A DNA stretch of 6,489 nucleotides, taken from NCBI GenBank assembly GCA_014381035.1, contig JACMIS010000665.1, forward strand, positions 1-6,489, given 5' to 3'. This DNA comes from Armatimonadota bacterium. Lineage in GTDB: Bacteria > Armatimonadota > Armatimonadia > Armatimonadales > Armatimonadaceae. The translations under genes and the position numbers were made by a program. Below are positions 1 to 6,489 of this stretch, piece by piece; positions within the stretch are counted from its first letter, which is position 1, and the number at the start of each line of letters is the position of its first letter. Under the pieces are notes generated by a model. The model was not told the DNA's origin. It worked only from the letters and a program-made list of their open reading frames with translations, and searched no databases.

Positions 1-1
1 C

Positions 2-772
2 GCACTGGACTGCCAGCAGGCACGCGACTACTTGGTGCGGACCGCATTTCAGCCGCTAAAGCGCAGGGATATTCGGACTATCAAAGGGCTTGCCGCCTTC
101 GCCCCGGACGAGGCCTATGCCGCCGCAATACGACTACTGCGCGATGAGGACGAACAAGACCGTATCTACGCGCTCGATTTGCTACTCGATATTGACGTAA
201 CACGGGCGATACCGGAGTTATTCAATCTGCTGGTTGGCGACCGAACGCAGTTGGTGATGCGTCATCGCATCGCGTACGCCCTATCCGAGAAGGTTCGGGC
301 GGGGGACGAGAAAGATGCAACGGCAATTCGTGAACACATCACGGGGCGCACTACATCGCCCGAGCCGCGCGAAAGATGGGGGGCTTGCTTCGTTCTCGGG
401 TTCCTGCCTTTATCGGACGACATATCGCAGGTCGTCCGCGACCTCATTGGAGATCAGGATGTACGGGTCTATGAAGCCGCCTGTGTTACTTGGAACCGTA
501 TGGAAAATGCACGTGCCGTTGGTTTGATCGTCGATTCCTTTTCGGTCGAAGATGATCCCGCCCGGCGTCGGATATTGCTCCGAGCCGCCCTCAAGATTGG
601 TGAACCGGGTGAAACTCAACGTGCCGAAGCACCCGAATGGCTGAATCGCATGGGCGCACGCCTTACTCCTTTGGAATGGCAACAGGCAACCGAAATGCTC
701 AGGAAACGCCGAGACAAGCGCGACGAAAGACTACGCCGGGAAGAGGATAGGGAAACCCGGGAGTTATACTAA
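2..772 (+). CDS. HEAT-repeat protein, 5'-truncated by the window edge
   Basis: The frame is open from the first complete codon at position 2, so the TTG at 32 need not be the true start and the gene probably begins outside the window; 256 residues are visible. The protein is almost entirely helical. Numbering from position 32, paired amphipathic helices recur at about 27-70, 75-105, 112-140 and 143-190, with HEAT-like stretches such as RIYALDLLLDID, RWGACFVLGFL and VRVYEAACVTW. It ends in a very basic and acidic tail (about 223-243, rich in R, K, D and E). HEAT solenoids normally act as protein-protein or nucleic-acid scaffolds; no catalytic motif is visible. It converges on the minus-strand operon with a 146-bp gap and has no evident link to it. 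It could be the C-terminal helical domain of a larger multidomain protein, such as a STAND NTPase or a kinase fusion. The fold call is fairly sure; the function is unknown. Confidence 0.75.
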   Translation, partial: ALDCQQARDYLVRTAFQPLKRRDIRTIKGLAAFAPDEAYAAAIRLLRDEDEQDRIYALDLLLDIDVTRAIPELFNLLVGDRTQLVMRHRIAYALSEKVRAGDEKDATAIREHITGRTTSPEPRERWGACFVLGFLPLSDDISQVVRDLIGDQDVRVYEAACVTWNRMENARAVGLIVDSFSVEDDPARRRILLRAALKIGEPGETQRAEAPEWLNRMGARLTPLEWQQATEMLRKRRDKRDERLRREEDRETRELY

Positions 773-777
773 ACTCC
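760..777 (+). repeat. Inverted repeat spanning the stop codon of the HEAT gene
   Basis: GGAGTT (760-765) and AACTCC (772-777) form a perfect 6-bp stem around a 6-base loop, with the TAA stop (770-772) at the loop/right-arm junction. There is no T-run directly after it, so it is not a standard intrinsic terminator by itself. It may protect the 3' end or assist the A/T-tract repeat at 800-822. Confidence 0.35.
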
Positions 778-799
778 TGACCGCGTCCTAAACCCATTG

Positions 800-822
800 A
801 AAAAAGCGGGTGATTCTTTTTT
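800..822. terminator. Candidate bidirectional terminator between convergent genes
   Basis: AAAAAAG (800-806) and CTTTTTT (816-822) form a perfect 7-bp inverted repeat around a 9-base GC-richer loop (807-815). It lies in the 146-bp gap between the HEAT gene (ends 772) and the convergent XRE-ImmA/IrrE gene (ends 919). Read from either strand a run of six T ends the element, as expected for a shared terminator. The stem lacks the usual GC-rich core; an alternative ACCC (792-795)/GGGT (808-811) pairing gives only four GC-richer pairs. Placement supports the call more than stem strength does. Confidence 0.4.
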
Positions 823-918
823 GATGCGCTCCCACTACCTGACGTGTGTTCAACGCTCTTTGCCGCGCGGTGGATGTCAAGAGAACAACCGGGTTCGTGG
901 CAACATCCCGACATCTTC

Positions 919-2046
919 TTAATAGTTCGCGGAATAGCCCAGTTCGTCAATGGTCAGGTATCTCTGCGGGGTTTCTTCCTGGATCGCCTGGCGGTATTCG
1001 TTGATCGTAGGGATGTAGGCAGCCAACTCCCTCACAGTCAGGTGGACGTCACGTGCCAGGTCCTCCGGGTAAACCCGCTTATCCACCAACCGGTCCAGGA
1101 CCTGCTTGTGGATCGCCGAAGTTTCCCAGTCTAACTTCCCCGGCTCCTGCACACGCCATCCGTTGGTCGAAATCTGCCGGAAGGCGCATTCGTACTGCCA
1201 CTGGGACAGTATGCTGGTGTCCCGGCACCGGCGCACCATCGCCTGCAGGGACACCTTCCACCGCTCTTTCATGTTCAGCAACTGGTTCAGGGTAGGGAAC
1301 TTAGGGCACTCGGAGCGAAACTGGTCGGCGGGCATCAGGAACGACGAGGCGAACCGATCCGCCTCGTTTTCCACTTGCTGGCCGTCCATATCCTCCACAC
1401 GGCGGTGCAGGACAAGGTGTCCCAACTCGTGGCTCAGATCGAAGCGGGCACGCTCACCCCCGCGCGACCGCTGACTCAGCAGCACGAACGGCTGTACGTC
1501 ACGCCAGAACGAAACCGCATCCACGAAAGGCGATTCCTCCTCAAACCAATAAATCTGAACGCCGACGCTTTCCAGTAGATGCACCACGTTGGTCACCGGG
1601 GCTTGTCCGAGTCCCCATTGCGCCCTTAATACCTGCGCGGCTACCTCCGGCGTCTCGCCGTTCAAATCGGGCACCGCCGGGACCGGTAGCCGGAACCGAC
1701 GCGCCAGGGCGGGCGATACGATACATGCGGCGACTTCGCCTGAGGCGGTCGTCTTGTCACGCACCTTGGCGGTCATCGCCCGTCGCGAACGGAACGATAT
1801 TGCCTCCAGCGGGATCGTATCCACCTCGTCCCCGTAGAAAAAAGCGAGCGGGAAGTCCAACGCCTCGGCGATCCTCCGAGCAGTCGCAACCTCCGGTGTG
1901 TGCCGTCCGTCCTCATAGAAAGTGACCATCTGTGCGGTTACGTTCACCGCCCCGGCGAGGTCCTTCTTTGTGAACTCCCGGCGTTGCCTGGCGACAGTCA
2001 GCCTTCGGGGAGAGAACTCCTCCGTCGGGATGTTTGGAATTGACAT
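919..2046 (-). CDS. XRE-family HTH regulator fused to ImmA/IrrE (M78) metallopeptidase
   Basis: This 375-aa protein has two recognisable parts. Residues about 14-68 are a Cro/C1-type helix-turn-helix (LTVARQRREFTKKDLAGAV, then VTFYEDGRHTP and ARRIAEALDFP). Residues about 80-300 are an ImmA/IrrE (COG2856, M78) domain with the usual linker motif around SFRS (84-87), a zinc-binding HELGH (H206, E207, H210) and the downstream ENEADRFASSFLMP (226-239), which supplies the acidic third ligand in this family. Known members cleave or sense a regulator under stress: ImmA acts on ImmR in ICEBs1 and IrrE/PprI on DdrO in Deinococcus. Residues about 300-375 are an extra C-terminal region of unknown role. 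I chose the ATG at 2046 because the open frame above it, back to 2187, overlaps the upstream gene and adds 47 residues without HTH character. That ATG lies one base after the upstream TGA and has no clear Shine-Dalgarno, so translation is probably coupled. It may autoregulate the promoter at 2835-2864. The family call is firm; the target is unknown. Confidence 0.92.
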   Translation of the reverse strand: MSIPNIPTEEFSPRRLTVARQRREFTKKDLAGAVNVTAQMVTFYEDGRHTPEVATARRIAEALDFPLAFFYGDEVDTIPLEAISFRSRRAMTAKVRDKTTASGEVAACIVSPALARRFRLPVPAVPDLNGETPEVAAQVLRAQWGLGQAPVTNVVHLLESVGVQIYWFEEESPFVDAVSFWRDVQPFVLLSQRSRGGERARFDLSHELGHLVLHRRVEDMDGQQVENEADRFASSFLMPADQFRSECPKFPTLNQLLNMKERWKVSLQAMVRRCRDTSILSQWQYECAFRQISTNGWRVQEPGKLDWETSAIHKQVLDRLVDKRVYPEDLARDVHLTVRELAAYIPTINEYRQAIQEETPQRYLTIDELGYSANY

Positions 2047-2047
2047 G

Positions 2048-2809
2048 TCAGTTTTCGGGCGACGCTGTGCGCTGGATATGTGACGGGTCCGACCATTCCA
2101 GCCTTTCGGCATCCTCGTCATGCTCCTCAACCACCGGGGTGAATACCGGTCCCTGCGGAAGGTCGGCGACGCTCTGAGCAACCTCAAACGGTTTGCCGGA
2201 CCACACGGTGTGGCACTCGATCCCGCAATCGAATACGGTACCCGTTTTGTTTAAAGCCTCCGGCAGCGCAACATGAATGGTCAAAACCATGTCGTCATCC
2301 CTGCCTTCGATCTCCCAGCAAACCCAAAAATTCTTGAAGATCGCACCGGGGTCACCCGGCTCGATTTCCGAGGAATCGCCCTCTGTTTCGACTTCCAACA
2401 GGCTCAACTGCCGCCCCCAAGCGGTGCTGTTTCCAACGACTAAACGACGACCATCCGACCCCTTCGGGTTCACTTTGAGGAGTCTGACATCTCCCTTCTT
2501 AATCAGGGTACCCTTGCACGCGAGGATGCGGATCGGTTGTTCGTAGCGGTCCGGGTCCTCGCACTCCAACCGCACCTGGCACCCTATGTCATTCCGCCCG
2601 AATCCGAACTCGGAAAGAAGATCGGTCAAGTTTTCGACGACGTTGCCGTACCGCTGCATCCCGTGATCGTTCAGCGGGCGCTTGGTATTATAGGTGTCTC
2701 TGGCACGACGCACAGCCTCCTGGACGGCGCGGACGATCTCCGCGACGACCTCGTGGTCATCGGTAATTTCCTGGTGGTGTGGGCGGAGTTTCGGTTGGAC
2801 GGTGATCAT
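2048..2809 (-). CDS. Unrecognised 253-aa protein, first gene of the XRE-ImmA/IrrE operon
   Basis: I do not recognise this family. The start is the ATG at 2809, preceded by a good Shine-Dalgarno (2817-2822, 7-base spacer) and a strong promoter, so expression is well supported. The N-terminal 70 residues look helical (DHEVVAEIVRAVQEAVRRARDTYN at about 18-41, then NVVENLTDLLSEFGF at 56-70). The rest looks like a beta-rich or mixed domain with six cysteines (77, 83, 98, 164, 195, 199), including CGIECH at 195-200. No enzymatic signature, signal peptide or membrane segment is visible, so it is probably cytosolic. The acidic tail (about 226-240, rich in E and D) is notable. The stop overlaps the translational start region of the XRE-ImmA/IrrE gene with one intervening base, which implies matched synthesis. 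By position it could be the toxin, the sensor or the protease substrate of a two-gene module; this is inference from context, not from homology. Confidence 0.85.
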   Translation of the reverse strand: MITVQPKLRPHHQEITDDHEVVAEIVRAVQEAVRRARDTYNTKRPLNDHGMQRYGNVVENLTDLLSEFGFGRNDIGCQVRLECEDPDRYEQPIRILACKGTLIKKGDVRLLKVNPKGSDGRRLVVGNSTAWGRQLSLLEVETEGDSSEIEPGDPGAIFKNFWVCWEIEGRDDDMVLTIHVALPEALNKTGTVFDCGIECHTVWSGKPFEVAQSVADLPQGPVFTPVVEEHDEDAERLEWSDPSHIQRTASPEN

Positions 2810-2816
2810 TGTAGAA

Positions 2817-2822
2817 CCTCTC
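2817..2822 (-). promoter_or_regulatory. Shine-Dalgarno site of the 253-aa gene
   Basis: On the minus strand GAGAGG ends 7 bases before the ATG at 2809. It fixes the start of the operon's first gene and contrasts with the absence of such a site before the second gene, consistent with translational coupling. Confidence 0.75.
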
Positions 2823-2834
2823 GTTGATTACGGG

Positions 2835-2864
2835 ATTATAACTGCAAAGTATCAAGCGTGTCAA
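2835..2864 (-). promoter_or_regulatory. Near-perfect sigma70-type promoter of the minus-strand operon
   Basis: On the minus strand an exact TTGACA (2864-2859) is followed after 18 bp by an exact TATAAT (2840-2835). Transcription would begin near 2828, leaving a leader of about 19 bases before the ATG at 2809. Both hexamers are full consensus with a near-optimal spacer, implying a strong promoter that needs repression. This fits an operon that encodes its own XRE regulator. The AT-rich DNA at 2866-2920 just upstream could add an UP-element effect. Confidence 0.8.
2849..2864. promoter_or_regulatory. Candidate operator: tandem heptamers inside the minus-strand promoter
   Basis: GTATCAA (2849-2855) and GTGTCAA (2858-2864) are direct repeats 9 bp apart that differ at one base. 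The second overlaps the -35 hexamer and the first lies in the spacer. A protein bound here would block RNA polymerase, as XRE repressors often do. A related longer copy (GTATCAAACGCG, 3069-3080) matches 2849-2860 at 10 of 12 bases. The site is inferred; no binding data can be read from sequence. Confidence 0.35.
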
Positions 2865-2926
2865 GAAAAAGTGATAGGAAATTTTAGTTTGGCAGATTTA
2901 ACGCGTTGAATATTTTTGGTTGTTAT

Positions 2927-2954
2927 GTCTGTAGGGTTGCGTATCGATACAGAC
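2927..2954. repeat. Inverted repeat GTCTGTA/TACAGAC enclosing a palindrome
   Basis: GTCTGTA (2927-2933) and TACAGAC (2948-2954) form a perfect 7-bp inverted repeat with a 14-base loop. A 10-bp perfect palindrome, GTATCGATAC (2941-2950), overlaps the loop and the right arm, so the two pairings exclude each other. It could be an operator or part of a structured RNA. Confidence 0.4.
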
Positions 2955-2994
2955 GCCAAACTTCCATCATGCTCCGTCGCGGGGTTTGATTGGC
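2955..2994. repeat. Imperfect inverted repeat GCCAAAC / GTTTGATTGGC
   Basis: GCC-AAAC (2955-2961) can pair with GTTT (2984-2987) and GGC (2992-2994) if GATT (2988-2991) bulges out; alternatively GCCAA pairs with TTGGC (2990-2994). It abuts the 2927-2954 repeat directly, so the two could be consecutive stems in one transcript. Weak by itself. Confidence 0.25.
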
Positions 2995-3031
2995 ATTTAG
3001 GTACGTAGCGAGCAGGTAGTGCTTTCTCACC

Positions 3032-3084
3032 CGCCGAGTGGTGTCTCCGGCGTTTCGCGCCTGACAGGGTATCAAACGCGCCGG
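3032..3084. repeat. Two overlapping, mutually exclusive GC-rich stems
   Basis: Stem A pairs CGCCGAG (3032-3038) with CTCCGGCG (3045-3052) with one bulged base and a 6-base loop. Stem B pairs CCGGCGTTT (3047-3055) with AAA (3074-3076) and CGCCGG (3079-3084), with a 2-base bulge. The segment 3047-3052 belongs to both, so only one can form at a time. Such alternative pairings are seen in attenuators and structured RNAs, but by-eye pairings in GC-rich DNA are easy to find by chance. Confidence 0.3.
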
Positions 3085-3206
3085 ATAGTGTGGGCTACCC
3101 CTAACGAAAACATTTATTTTTAATCTTTCCGTTTTTGTGCAACTCTGCTGAGTATATCCCAGGCTGCGATGTGATTCAGGAGTGCCGGTTTGTTAGATGT
3201 GCGTTG

Positions 3207-3223
3207 TTGATTCACGGAATCAA
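3207..3223. promoter_or_regulatory. Candidate operator palindrome upstream of the KAP NTPase gene
   Basis: TTGATTC (3207-3213), ACG, GAATCAA (3217-3223) is a perfect 7-bp inverted repeat with a 3-base centre, about 35 bases before the KAP start codon. Its TTGATT could also serve as a weak -35 hexamer for a TACTAT -10 at 3229-3234 (16-bp spacer, each 4 of 6 to consensus), although that would start transcription very close to the Shine-Dalgarno. The half-site resembles those in the opposing promoter (2849-2864). Confidence 0.45.
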
Positions 3224-3239
3224 GTATTTACTATGAACA

Positions 3240-3248
3240 GGGGGGAGG
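3240..3248 (+). promoter_or_regulatory. Strong Shine-Dalgarno of the KAP NTPase gene
   Basis: GGGGGGAGG ends 9 bases before the ATG at 3258. It favours that start over the in-frame ATGs at 3273 and 3294, which lie too far downstream to use it, although those starts cannot be fully excluded. Confidence 0.65.
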
Positions 3249-3257
3249 TCTGGTGGG

Positions 3258-5543
3258 ATGGACGACGGCGAAATGGGAGATGTGCGTAACGGGATGTACG
3301 GGGTAACGCTATCGTCGGACGCGGCGATTCAAAGTCGGGCGGCTGACATCTTGGGGCGACGGCGTTTCGCCGAGCGGATGGCGGCGACCATCCGCGACCG
3401 GGTCGGCGAGGAGAGCGTCGTGATCGCGCTCATGGGACCCTGGGGGTGTGGCAAGACGAGCATCAAGAACATGGTCATCGAGTCCCTCGCGGAGGACCCG
3501 GACACTAAGCCGCACGTGGTCGAGTTTGAACCGTGGTTGTGGAGAAATCAGGAGGACCTGACCGCAGCGTTCTTCCGCGAGGTCGGTATCGCCCTCGGGC
3601 GAGAAGACGCGGCGGGTGACGGGGAGGCGCGAGCCGCCAAATGGAATCGCTACGCAGCGAACTTCGCTGTCGGTGCCACCGCCCTAAAGGCACTCGCGGG
3701 CTTCGCCACATTCGCGTCGACGGGGGACCCGGTTCTTGCCGCTACGGTGGTTGCGGCAGGCAAACTGGGTGATGTCGCTGACCCCATGAAGAAAGGCAGC
3801 GAGGCTCTCGCCGCGCAGGCTGCGGGCGCGAAGAAGACTCTCGCTGAACAGCGCACGGAGTTGCGGGCGTCTCTGCTCGAACTGGAGCGTCCCGTTCTTG
3901 TGGTCATGGACGATCTCGACCGGCTCACTGCCTCCGAGATTCCGCTGATCTTCCAACTGGTAAAGGCGAACGCGAACTTCCCGAACATCGTCTACCTACT
4001 CCTGTTCCAGCGCGAGTCGGTCGAGCGAAGCCTGGATTCTGTCGCGCCGGGTGGGGGGAACTATGCCGGACGCGAGTACCTGGAGAAGATCGTCCAGGTA
4101 CCGTTCGACGTGCCGCTCGCGCCCAAGGGCACCCTGCATGACGCAATCGGGCGCGGTTTGACGGACGCGCTCGGCCCGGAACTCGACCGCCGGGTTGAGA
4201 ACGACCGCCGCTGGCGCAACCTACTCGGCACCCGGTTGCTCGACTACTTCGAGAACCTGCGCGACGTGCGTCGGTTCCTGAACGCGTTCTCGTTTACAGT
4301 CGGCATGTTTCGGGGCGAGGGCGACTCCTTCGAGGTCAACCCGATGGACCTGCTCGCGCTGGAGGTGATCCGATTCTTCGAGCCGGACGTTTACGCCCGG
4401 CTCCCTATTATGAAGCGGAGATTACTTGAGCCGAAGGGCGACTACACTTACACAAAGCAGGAGGAAGAGGTCGTACGTGCGGATATGAGGGCACTACTGG
4501 AGTCGGCGACACCGCGCCACCGCGACTCCCTGCGCGAGATGCTCAAAGATCTTTTTCCCGCCGGGGCGTGGTCGTTCCACGAAGACAAGCAACCTTACTG
4601 GCTGGGGTCGGTCGCAACACGCGAGGCACTCCGCGAACTCCACGCCTGTCACCCGGCATTCTTCGACCGCTATTTCCATCTCGCAGTGCCCCAGGACGAC
4701 CTTCCTCAGGCGGACTTGAACCGCCTCCTCGCCGCGACCGGCGACGGCGACCGGCTATTGGGAATACTTCGGGAACTGGCGCGGCGAGGCGTGCTACCGG
4801 TCGCCCTGGACCGCTTCGCGTCGTACGCGGACGAGATCAACCTTGATGACTCCTGGAATGTGGTTTCGGTACTATTGTCGCTGGACCCGGAATTGATCAG
4901 ATCCAAAAGCGACATGATGCACTTCGATAGCCGTGACGCGACGGTGGCATCCTTCATCAAAGACCTCCTGCTACGCGACGAGGATGTCCAGCGGCGTAGC
5001 AAACTCTTGCGCCGTGCTTTGGAAGAAGCAGAGACACTATGGTTGCCGTGCTACGCCGCCCACTGGGACGAACGGGATGAGGAGGCACTCAAACGGCGGA
5101 GCGAGTTCGTAATGACCGAGGACGACGTAGCGGCGGCACTGCGTGCATGCGCCGACCGCATCCGAACCGCCGGGGAAACCGGCGACTTGGAACGTCACCC
5201 GATGCTGGCAGCCTTGCTGTACCGGTGGCGTGCGTGGGGGGACGCGAGGGAGATGCAATCGTACGTCAACCGGCTCGTCGAAACTGAACTGGGGTTGATA
5301 CGGTTTCTGACAGCCTGGGTTAGCGTATCACACGAGAGCAACAGTAGCGACCGGATAAGCCACCCCAAAAAGTTCGTCAACCTCACATCAGTCGGGGAGT
5401 TCATCGCGGTCGATTCGTTGGCGGAAAAGGTCAGGGTGCTGATCGCCAATCCACCGACCGATGGTTTCGGTACGGACGGTCAGGAGGCGGCGGCTCTCTT
5501 CCTCGACACGCTCGCCCGTGGGAACGGTGGGAGTGACTCCTGA
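3258..5543 (+). CDS. KAP-family P-loop NTPase, candidate phage-defence protein
   Basis: This 761-aa protein has the KAP signature in order. A lead-in helix is followed by Walker A GPWGCGKTS (residues 60-68), then the family's FEPWLWRNQEDL block (90-101; other members have F-x-x-W at this place). An insertion with two modestly hydrophobic stretches follows (about 132-153 and 157-172), where KAP proteins typically carry a membrane hairpin; here it is Ala/Gly-rich, so membrane insertion is doubtful. A charged helix (178-210) precedes Walker B PVLVVMDDLDRL (212-223), then YLEKIVQVPFDVP (273-285) and ENLRDVRRFLNAF (332-344), a conserved arginine-containing motif. Residues about 400-761 are a helical C-terminal region I do not recognise. 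All NTPase motifs are intact, so it should bind and hydrolyse NTP. Known KAP members include PifA of plasmid F (T7 exclusion) and animal Kidins220. It is transcribed divergently from the XRE-ImmA/IrrE operon and is followed by small hairpins. The family is firm; the defence role is inference. Confidence 0.92.
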   Translation: MDDGEMGDVRNGMYGVTLSSDAAIQSRAADILGRRRFAERMAATIRDRVGEESVVIALMGPWGCGKTSIKNMVIESLAEDPDTKPHVVEFEPWLWRNQEDLTAAFFREVGIALGREDAAGDGEARAAKWNRYAANFAVGATALKALAGFATFASTGDPVLAATVVAAGKLGDVADPMKKGSEALAAQAAGAKKTLAEQRTELRASLLELERPVLVVMDDLDRLTASEIPLIFQLVKANANFPNIVYLLLFQRESVERSLDSVAPGGGNYAGREYLEKIVQVPFDVPLAPKGTLHDAIGRGLTDALGPELDRRVENDRRWRNLLGTRLLDYFENLRDVRRFLNAFSFTVGMFRGEGDSFEVNPMDLLALEVIRFFEPDVYARLPIMKRRLLEPKGDYTYTKQEEEVVRADMRALLESATPRHRDSLREMLKDLFPAGAWSFHEDKQPYWLGSVATREALRELHACHPAFFDRYFHLAVPQDDLPQADLNRLLAATGDGDRLLGILRELARRGVLPVALDRFASYADEINLDDSWNVVSVLLSLDPELIRSKSDMMHFDSRDATVASFIKDLLLRDEDVQRRSKLLRRALEEAETLWLPCYAAHWDERDEEALKRRSEFVMTEDDVAAALRACADRIRTAGETGDLERHPMLAALLYRWRAWGDAREMQSYVNRLVETELGLIRFLTAWVSVSHESNSSDRISHPKKFVNLTSVGEFIAVDSLAEKVRVLIANPPTDGFGTDGQEAAALFLDTLARGNGGSDS

Positions 5544-5582
5544 CAGGCTGACGTGTCAGTATCGGGTACAGTGCAAACACTG
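5540..5582 (+). terminator. Paired small hairpins at the 3' end of the KAP gene
   Basis: CTGACA (5540-5545) and TGTCAG (5554-5559) make a perfect 6-bp stem with an 8-base loop that includes the TGA stop codon in its left arm. Ten bases later CAGTG (5569-5573) and CACTG (5578-5582) make a 5-bp stem with a CAAA loop. Neither is followed by a clean T-run (GATCTTTAGAAATT comes later), so termination here is plausible but weak. Confidence 0.3.
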
Positions 5583-5827
5583 AGGAATTAGATCTTTAGA
5601 AATTAAACATCTGATCGACGTCCGGCCTCGCCAGTCCTATTATTCGGCACTTTGAAGCCGACGCATATAATTTGACCACCTCATTCCCGAGGGGATGTTC
5701 TTGCCACTACATCTGGGATCGAATGTCTGCCCGCAAACAACGCCTCCGGGCACGGAGCCAATAAGCAGCGCGGATGCTTTCGTCACCTGAAAATGCTGTT
5801 ACGTTAGGGCGAATATTCCGCCTCGCG
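5544..5827. other. Noncoding gap between the KAP gene and the convergent TSUP gene
   Basis: No convincing gene lies in these 284 bases. They hold the two hairpins above, an AT-rich stretch (5583-5612), an exact TATAAT (5666-5671) without a credible -35 partner, and a CATTCC/GGGATG stem with a CGAG loop (5682-5697, one G-T pair) followed by TTCTTG. The convergent arrangement of the flanking genes means only termination signals are expected here. Confidence 0.5.
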
Positions 5828-6489
5828 TCAGCCATTGGAAAGTCGGAGTGCGTTCCAAAGCATCGCGAGTGCCGCCGCCCCGACGAGGCAAGCGAATGCA
5901 AGCCGCAGAACCCGGTTGGGCAACCGATGGGTTGTCAGTGCCCCGATTTGCGCCCCGATAGAGGACCCCATGAGCAAGGTTACGGCGAGCGGGAGTGAAA
6001 CATGACCCGACAGTGCGGACTGCACCGTGCCGAGCGAAACCGTAAGAAAAAGAAGTAATACCCCCGTCCCCGCCGAATTGCGTGCCGAGAGTCCGAATCC
6101 GTACATCAGCACTGGCATCAGTAGCACGCCGCCCCCCACGCCCATGATGCCTGAAAGAAACCCGAGAAGGAAGCCGAGATACGCCAAAAGTGGCACGGAA
6201 GCCTGCCGGATACCGACATTCGGCAAATCAATGAAGGGTGGGATGCGAACCTTCGTCACGAGCGGACCGGGTATAGTTGTGTCGCCGCGTGGCACTTCGC
6301 CCCGTGCCTGCCAGGACTCGCGGAAGATGAAACCTGCCGTCACCGTCAGGATCACGACGAACAACACATTGATAACCAGCGTGACGAGCGGAATGGACTT
6401 ACCCGATGCGAGATGGAGCGGCGCGACGCCTGAAAGATAGCGCAGTGCCCGACCGCCCGCGTCCACGCCGATCAGGCTGCCGCCGATCA
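5828..6489 (-). CDS. TauE/SafE (TSUP) family membrane transporter, 5'-truncated by the window edge
   Basis: The minus-strand frame stays open to the right edge of the window, so the GTG at 6466 is unlikely to be the real start; the visible part is the C-terminal half plus the end of the N-terminal half. Numbering from 6466, hydrophobic segments occur at about 24-48, 92-108, 133-153, 158-178 and 184-207. The diagnostic TSUP block FLSGIMGVGGGVLLMPVL (103-120) is present, followed by AGTGVLLLFLT and MGSSIGAQIGALTTHRLP (166-183), which match the second repeat of this duplicated family. Upstream of the GTG the frame reads IGGSLIGV, like the end of the first repeat. Family members export or import sulfur-containing or small organic anions such as sulfite, sulfoacetate or taurine-derived sulfonates; the substrate here cannot be read from sequence. 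A soluble loop at about 50-88, rich in Pro and charged residues, links the halves. It converges on the KAP gene and looks like an ordinary housekeeping neighbour. Confidence 0.85.
   Translation of the reverse strand, partial: IGGSLIGVDAGGRALRYLSGVAPLHLASGKSIPLVTLVINVLFVVILTVTAGFIFRESWQARGEVPRGDTTIPGPLVTKVRIPPFIDLPNVGIRQASVPLLAYLGFLLGFLSGIMGVGGGVLLMPVLMYGFGLSARNSAGTGVLLLFLTVSLGTVQSALSGHVSLPLAVTLLMGSSIGAQIGALTTHRLPNRVLRLAFACLVGAAALAMLWNALRLSNG

Follow-up and report, generated by a model that had tools for sequence, protein, structure and literature searches.

A divergent RosmerTA toxin-antitoxin pair from an Armatimonadota bacterium and a putative sliding-clamp-binding motif in the RmrT toxin family

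Introduction

RosmerTA systems are toxin-first operons in which the toxin RmrT is followed by the antitoxin RmrA, a single protein that combines an XRE helix-turn-helix (HTH) with an ImmA/IrrE-type peptidase (Peptidase_M78). Though RosmerTA is widely annotated, the accessible literature reports targets for few of its toxins, namely the sliding clamp DnaN for RipA and the membrane for RmrT-D5 of the Gordonia phage Kita. According to the available sections of the RipAB report, the toxin of this pneumococcal Rosmer pair, RipA, is an interaction partner of DnaN, and its suppressors lie in the hydrophobic pocket of the clamp and abolish the DnaN interaction in two assays (PMC12795458). The toxin SocB likewise blocks replication via a clamp motif, as described in the part of the source available (PMC9690074). 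Here we analyzed a 6,489-nucleotide stretch of an Armatimonadota bacterium (assembly GCA_014381035.1, contig JACMIS010000665.1, positions 1 to 6,489 of the forward strand; hereafter the window), which carries an rmrA gene (product P0001) and, ahead of it, a gene for a putative toxin (P0002). A preliminary description made from the letters alone had noted an XRE-HTH regulator with an HELGH metallopeptidase motif behind an unrecognised 253-amino-acid partner, and had named RosmerTA as a system of this architecture.

Results

The gene pair is a RosmerTA module with a deeply divergent toxin

Running PADLOC on the locus, as the preliminary description had proposed, matched both RosmerTA genes. The regulator P0001 matched the RmrA model with an E-value of 1.7e-115, and HTH_31, HTH_3 and Peptidase_M78 all scored above their Pfam cut-offs (PF06114, 7.9e-17; PF01381, 2.3e-7), so the XRE HTH and the peptidase domain of a RosmerTA antitoxin are present in one protein. 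The HELGH motif was intact at residues 206-210. The metal site of RmrA looks intact since His206, Glu207, His210 and Glu226 were kept in all 76 aligned RmrA sequences. Close relatives of P0001 were P0005 (89% identity), P0007 (81%) and P0006 (62%); named relatives at 46% included Capsulimonas and Armatimonadaceae metagenome-assembled genomes. In a search of solved structures, CapP was the sole match for RmrA.

Since the match of P0002 to the PADLOC RmrT model was weak (PDLC03935, E-value 6.8e-6, 24 bits, with no curated cut-off shown), its membership of the family was tested further. General libraries searched up to an E-value of 1 gave only Pfam rve_3 (0.21) and NCBIfam NF052473 (0.027; 13 bits against a cut-off of 500), and PHROG gave no match. 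On a profile of 91 RmrT sequences, P0002 scored 17.3 bits and its relatives P0004 and P0003 scored 16.1 and 13.8 bits, respectively, whereas none of 1,503 decoys, shuffled or reversed, exceeded 8.2 bits. Comparison with the same 91 sequences by hhalign yielded a probability of 92.3 and a score of 47.1 over 144 columns, with 20.0 for the best of 61 controls. A bridge to the family was provided by a viral-contig locus, L192, whose RmrA was 46% identical to the window RmrA in the best segment. The L192 partner matched P0002 by BLASTP with an E-value of 1.8e-7 in a three-sequence search and scored 22.9 bits on the profile of the P0002-P0004 trio, on which 1,001 decoys reached at most 7.4 bits. When L192 was added, the family match rose to an hhalign probability of 96.4 over 102 columns. 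Because of the profile comparison and the bridging locus, P0002 is most reasonably placed within RmrT, on a deep branch, and not in an unrelated family. The earlier suggestion that the partner may be a new family thus stands as far as its deep divergence goes, but the protein belongs to the known RmrT family. The decoy tests and L192 agree with the two PADLOC matches, in line with the architecture named in the preliminary description. With a partner homologous to known RmrT encoded next to rmrA on the same strand, the module is almost certainly a RosmerTA toxin-antitoxin pair, and the best reading of P0002 is that of its putative toxin.

RmrT and RmrA occur together across genomes and viral contigs

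We assessed the pairing in the best 80 of 519 RmrA-like genome loci and, among viral contigs, in the best 80 of 414 and the best 80 of 228 loci. A same-strand open reading frame (ORF) of at least 120 amino acids lay directly upstream of RmrA in 78 of the 80 genome loci, and in 76 of the 80 the upstream ORF matched a profile built from 17 plasmid and phage partners. Of these matched partners 69 formed one group, A4, and PADLOC found RmrT in every member of it. The genome-locus scan gave no partner ORF at L027 and L031, the latter being near a contig edge. Four other loci were left out of the 91-row RmrT set and of the 76-pair set described below: L046 and L076 lacked an RmrT match, and L032 and L054 had odd lengths. 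In viral contigs, an ORF of at least 120 amino acids preceded RmrA in 154 of 160 loci, and 22 of the 23 plasmid and phage loci that we opened (L001-L017, L106-L111) had an ORF of suitable size upstream. A reverse search with the RmrT profile covered 14 genomes with known loci and sampled three classes (289, 274 and 296 genomes), where scoring ended at the 10th or 11th candidate of each genome. RmrA lay directly downstream in 21/21 RmrT-profile loci of one set and 13/14 of a second, with seven loci common to both, which gives 27 of 28 in all. Fourteen of these loci had been reached earlier via RmrA; among the remaining 14, RmrA was downstream in 13. At the exception, L296, the RmrT frame is interrupted by a stop, and the fetched stretch showed no RmrA. 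The pairing of RmrT with RmrA is therefore far above chance, and the scatter of partner orthologues without the regulator, which the preliminary description had named as grounds for abandoning the pair, was not seen.

The evidence for pairing is thinner in the close branch of the window itself. P0003 and P0005 each lie on 7015-base contigs of source lgn, and P0004 and P0007 each on 3522-base contigs of source ena; from contig size and source, P0003 and P0005 probably share one contig and P0004 and P0007 another, which would place P0003 and P0004 beside RmrA relatives. No RmrT to match the P0006 RmrA appeared in the shared-word protein search, and P0001 used alone gave no match in viral contigs. 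L192 (355-1533, 2126-4137), which is nearest to the pair among its viral-contig relatives, adjoins an ORF that looks, by eye, like a tyrosine recombinase.

RmrT diverges faster than its partner

An exact-shared-word search of 5.8 billion proteins returned only two relatives of P0002, namely P0003 (78% identity) and P0004 (65%). The trio had no confirmed relative in viral contigs or genome contigs, no match in 149 genomes from the phylum of G015 (a negative with no positive control behind it) and none among solved structures at an E-value of 1, and P0002 had none among plasmids at 0.01. These searches depend on shared words or patterns and so are not exhaustive; the L192 partner was missed by the protein search and by the viral-contig search. 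Identities were compared across 76 gene pairs, namely those of 74 genome loci, that of the window, and P0005 with P0003, whose pairing is inferred. Over the 2,850 combinations the median identity was 45% for RmrA and 25% for RmrT, with RmrT lower in 2,846, indicating that the toxin diverges much faster than its partner. The window had the lowest medians of the 76 pairs (RmrA 37.8%, RmrT 15.6%; 16% to the 74 genome-locus RmrT sequences). Its RmrT kept the invariant Gly117 and had His179 at the column of the family's invariant Glu, the Glu of ELSLP (residue 168 of L063), which was present in 91/91 family rows; P0004 had Tyr at this column, and L192 had Tyr or His depending on the aligner. Since RmrT drifts far while RmrA stays recognisable, annotation tools may miss such toxins.

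A clamp-motif-like sequence is conserved in the RmrT linker

In the RmrT alignment, a conserved Lys-Gly is followed by a variable linker. Within it, alignment columns 365-369 (n=91) held Gln in 57 rows, Leu in 27 or Tyr in 11, Asp in 20 or Glu in 18, Leu in 66 and Phe in 58, which gives the family consensus Q-L-[D/E]-L-F. The published bacterial sliding-clamp-binding motif is QL[S/D]LF or, more generally, QxxLF, in the portion of the source available (PMC12309361). A second report, likewise available in part, describes the Q-L-x-L-F clamp motif as weak and often placed in unstructured sequence, with hydrophobic or aromatic residues in positions 4 and 5 in one transposase family (PMC4549789). 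We report counts for motif patterns from the literature and set aside a looser pattern of our own because it was drawn up after seeing the alignment.

QxxLF was found in 28 of the 91 RmrT sequences, all 28 times within the linker (shuffled mean 0.19, maximum 3), and in 16 of 54 representatives below 50% identity, here too with no copy outside the linker (shuffled mean 0.11, maximum 2). The background was 11 of 327 neighbouring, mechanically called ORFs of at least 180 amino acids, RmrA included, and 1 of 76 for RmrA alone. The 14 later-found RmrT loci, which played no part in finding the motif, are a fairer test because the motif had been noticed before testing; 8 of them carried QxxLF in the linker. 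Together with other RmrT types, these loci come nearer to independent tests. The corresponding copies were QLSLL in the window and in P0003, QLLLP in P0004 and QLELF in L192. A Leu in position 5 also occurs, presumably, in the QMSLL of E. coli MutS. In the predicted models, RmrT had a globular alpha/beta fold, and residues 134-142 of the window RmrT, motif included, had a predicted local distance difference test (pLDDT) below 50. The linker of L028, from a record titled Bacillus sp. 2B10, read QYELW and was sphingomonad-like; transfer or a mislabelled assembly is possible. A literature search, with preprints and most subscription journals outside its reach, did not find a statement of a clamp motif in an RmrT.

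The partners at L107-L110 match other PADLOC RmrT subfamilies and scored at most 2.8 bits on the RmrT profile. In the same relative place L107 had QYNLF, L110 had QLSLF and L108 had EISLF, lacking the Gln; L109 (QNYELNF) and the L111 partner did not fit the motif. Among main-group partners in viral contigs, QxxLF was present in 12 of 45 (13 matches, 12 falling within tenths six and seven of the protein), and the looser xxx[LM]F reached 17 and 20 in two bins, above the shuffle maximum of 12. Among 49 distinct viral-contig partners outside the main group, seven had QxxLF, and in six of these it fell in the sixth tenth (shuffled mean there 0.15, maximum in any bin 3). The viral-contig counts, for the main group and the others alike, are inflated by relatedness since the partners were de-duplicated by shared words only.

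Organization of the locus

The positions of the genes and signals are listed in Table 1. The coordinates bore out the one-base spacing given in the preliminary description: P0002 runs from an ATG at 2809 to a TGA at 2050-2048, P0001 starts with an ATG at 2046, and the single base 2047 lies between them. A 422-amino-acid TTG-start frame for the regulator overlaps P0002 and is not needed, and the ATG at 2046 was preferred. The sigma-70-like TTGACA-18-TATAAT lies upstream of P0002 on the strand of the pair; in the 2.5-kb region, three promoter-like sites with at least nine matches were found compared to a shuffled mean of 1.1. The consensus-perfect promoter together with GAGAGG upstream suggests that the pair is one operon with the toxin gene first, and both signals back the ATG at 2809 as the start of P0002. 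An imperfect palindrome at 2896-2911, just 5' of the promoter, is a possible RmrA operator.

Table 1. Features of the window and the evidence for each
Feature	Position	Strand	Evidence
rmrT-like gene (P0002), putative toxin, 253 amino acids	2048..2809	-	PADLOC RmrT PDLC03935, hhalign, bridging locus L192
rmrA gene (P0001), putative antitoxin/repressor, XRE HTH + ImmA/IrrE (Peptidase_M78), 375 amino acids	919..2046	-	PADLOC, Pfam
HELGH zinc-protease motif, RmrA residues 206-210	1417..1431	-	sequence; residue conservation
XRE helix-turn-helix, RmrA residues 14-70	1837..2007	-	Pfam HTH_31 14-66, HTH_3 19-70
Putative sliding-clamp-binding motif QLSLL, RmrT residues 134-138	2396..2410	-	alignment with family linker consensus
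Promoter-like TTGACA-18-TATAAT, rmrTA operon	2835..2864	-	12/12 consensus matches
Ribosome-binding-site-like GAGAGG, ahead of RmrT ATG	2817..2822	-	sequence
KAP P-loop nucleoside triphosphatase (NTPase), PifA-like, 761 amino acids	3258..5543	+	PADLOC PifA, Pfam KAP_NTPase
HEAT-repeat protein	32..772	+	Pfam HEAT_2 E 2.6e-10
TauE/SafE permease	5828..6466	-	profile positions 89-237 only

The KAP NTPase matched PADLOC PifA with an E-value of 1.1e-84 over residues 18-728 and Pfam KAP_NTPase with 4.9e-43. It lies outside the pair and divergent from the rmrTA operon, and is likely a second defence candidate, so that the window possibly forms a small defence island. Among the 23 opened plasmid and phage loci, no fewer than 5 (L001, L003, L010, L015, L110) had annotated AbiE-type, abortive-infection, restriction or other toxin-antitoxin neighbours. 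The HEAT-repeat protein had no PADLOC match, and only part of the TauE/SafE permease profile matched, so that this gene seems to be truncated at the window edge.

Discussion

Computation established the gene pair, the RmrA membership of the regulator, the RmrT homology of its partner, the family-wide pairing and the conserved linker motif. Taken together, the RipA-DnaN interaction, SocB and the motif in RmrT make a clamp-poisoning toxin held by RmrA the best-supported account, in which free RmrT would jam DnaN and stop replication; we give it about an even chance. RmrA would repress the rmrTA operon and keep RmrT inactive until phage infection or some other trigger inactivates RmrA or switches it, possibly via its ImmA-type protease. 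Free RmrT could then dock by its linker motif (QLSLL in the window, QL[D/E]LF in the family) in the hydrophobic pocket of DnaN, and the RmrT-bound clamp would shut out polymerases, so that replication halts and the cell arrests before phage is made. More tentatively, and somewhat short of an even chance, many RosmerTA toxins across several RmrT subfamilies, which have diverged beyond the reach of a single profile, may share this design, a restriction-endonuclease-like and probably non-cleaving body with a clamp motif in a flexible linker, and may poison DnaN.

Several observations weigh against this account. The window motif fits QL[S/D]LF in positions 1-4 and has Leu instead of Phe in position 5, a position said to matter in the sections available (PMC12309361), and the Glu that is invariant in the family is replaced by His in the window RmrT. 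Strict QxxLF is missing from 63 of the 91 RmrT sequences and from 6 of the 14 later loci. Because the motif was noticed in the alignment before testing, the shuffles overstate the surprise, and conservation of a motif is by itself no demonstration of clamp binding. Outside the main group, just 7 of the 49 distinct viral-contig partners had strict QxxLF, and the looser xxx[LM]F gave 16 and 14, under the shuffle maximum of 18. In the canonical RmrT model the motif region has a pLDDT of about 75 and may partly pack on the fold. The pairing has its gaps as well: at L106 (Paenibacillus phage Dash), an S8 peptidase gene takes the place of an RmrT-like ORF upstream of RmrA, and the L111 partner matches no PADLOC RmrT. 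Moreover, Kita RmrT-D5 depolarises membranes (PMC10440598), so the toxins of RosmerTA systems differ among themselves. Two RosmerTA homologues from S. thermophilus worked poorly against the majority of the phages tried (PMC12322248). Neither the mechanism nor protection can therefore be assumed for every pair.

The most durable alternative, which we consider rather unlikely, is that RmrT hits another target and that the linker motif is structural or binds the antitoxin, for example as a docking site for RmrA. The motif is positionally fixed between a helix and a strand across the family, the confidence of the canonical model at the motif would suit a structural role, and RosmerTA toxins are described as diverse in the parts of the source available (PMC10440598). 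However, the linker consensus is nearly identical to the published clamp motif in the available sections (PMC12309361, PMC4549789), the Rosmer toxin RipA targets DnaN in the accessible text (PMC12795458), and linker length varies from 12 to 25 residues before and 23 to 48 after the motif (57/91 rows with [LM]F). It is improbable that RmrT is a PD-(D/E)XK-type nuclease carried by the motif to replication forks. Among the conserved alignment columns of RmrT, the catalytic acidic residues and Lys of such a fold were not apparent. That the pair is instead a common stress regulator linked to a gene for its substrate or sensor, and no toxin-antitoxin system, is very improbable: ImmA/IrrE-XRE proteins can regulate without toxins, but the strength of the RmrA match and the near-constant RmrT linkage speak against it, as do the relatives validated in other studies, so far as their accessible text goes (PMC10440598, PMC12795458). 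Least probable of all is a membrane-depolarising toxin, as RmrT-D5 shares the antitoxin family but is set apart by its description, in the available text, as lacking detectable similarity to other families (PMC10440598), and the RmrT models are predicted to be globular alpha/beta proteins.

The putative clamp motif in RmrT offers a new proposal, open to direct testing, for how this toxin family acts, and as the conserved motif spans five residues, the question of the target is open to a single-mutation experiment. If clamp poisoning holds, RosmerTA would be a widespread class of replication-clamp-targeting defence, with RipA as its first characterised member and the window on a remote branch, and the motif would link anti-phage Rosmer systems, pneumococcal RipA and SocB by one target.

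Among described systems, CapP and CapH of the cyclic-oligonucleotide-based antiphage signalling system (CBASS) resemble the window in combining an ImmA-type protease with an HTH repressor, and the capP and capH models gave 78.5 and 16.5 bits, respectively. CapP and CapH are two separate proteins, whereas the window has one fused protein on which the RmrA models score far higher; no separate capH and capP genes and no further CBASS match were found among the five window proteins scanned. The antitoxin of SocAB works on a different principle, ClpXP delivery. Compared by description, SocAB of Caulobacter is similar in that its toxin stops replication elongation at the clamp pocket via a clamp motif, according to the available part of the report (PMC9690074). 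RipAB (spr1630/spr1629) of Streptococcus pneumoniae is closer, being a Rosmer-type pair with the same proposed target, DnaN; we compared its antitoxin by sequence and RipA by description. On the NCBIfam spr1629 model (NF052239) the window RmrA scored 142.7 bits, far below the 335-bit cut-off, and is thus not its equivalog, and the word motif is absent from the accessible text of the RipA paper (PMC12795458). RosmerTA itself is the nearest system. The window departs from it in its RmrT, with the low PADLOC score, the 16% median identity and the His in place of the invariant Glu, and agrees with it in the toxin-first operon, the XRE and M78 antitoxin that matches RmrA so strongly, and the homologous RmrT.
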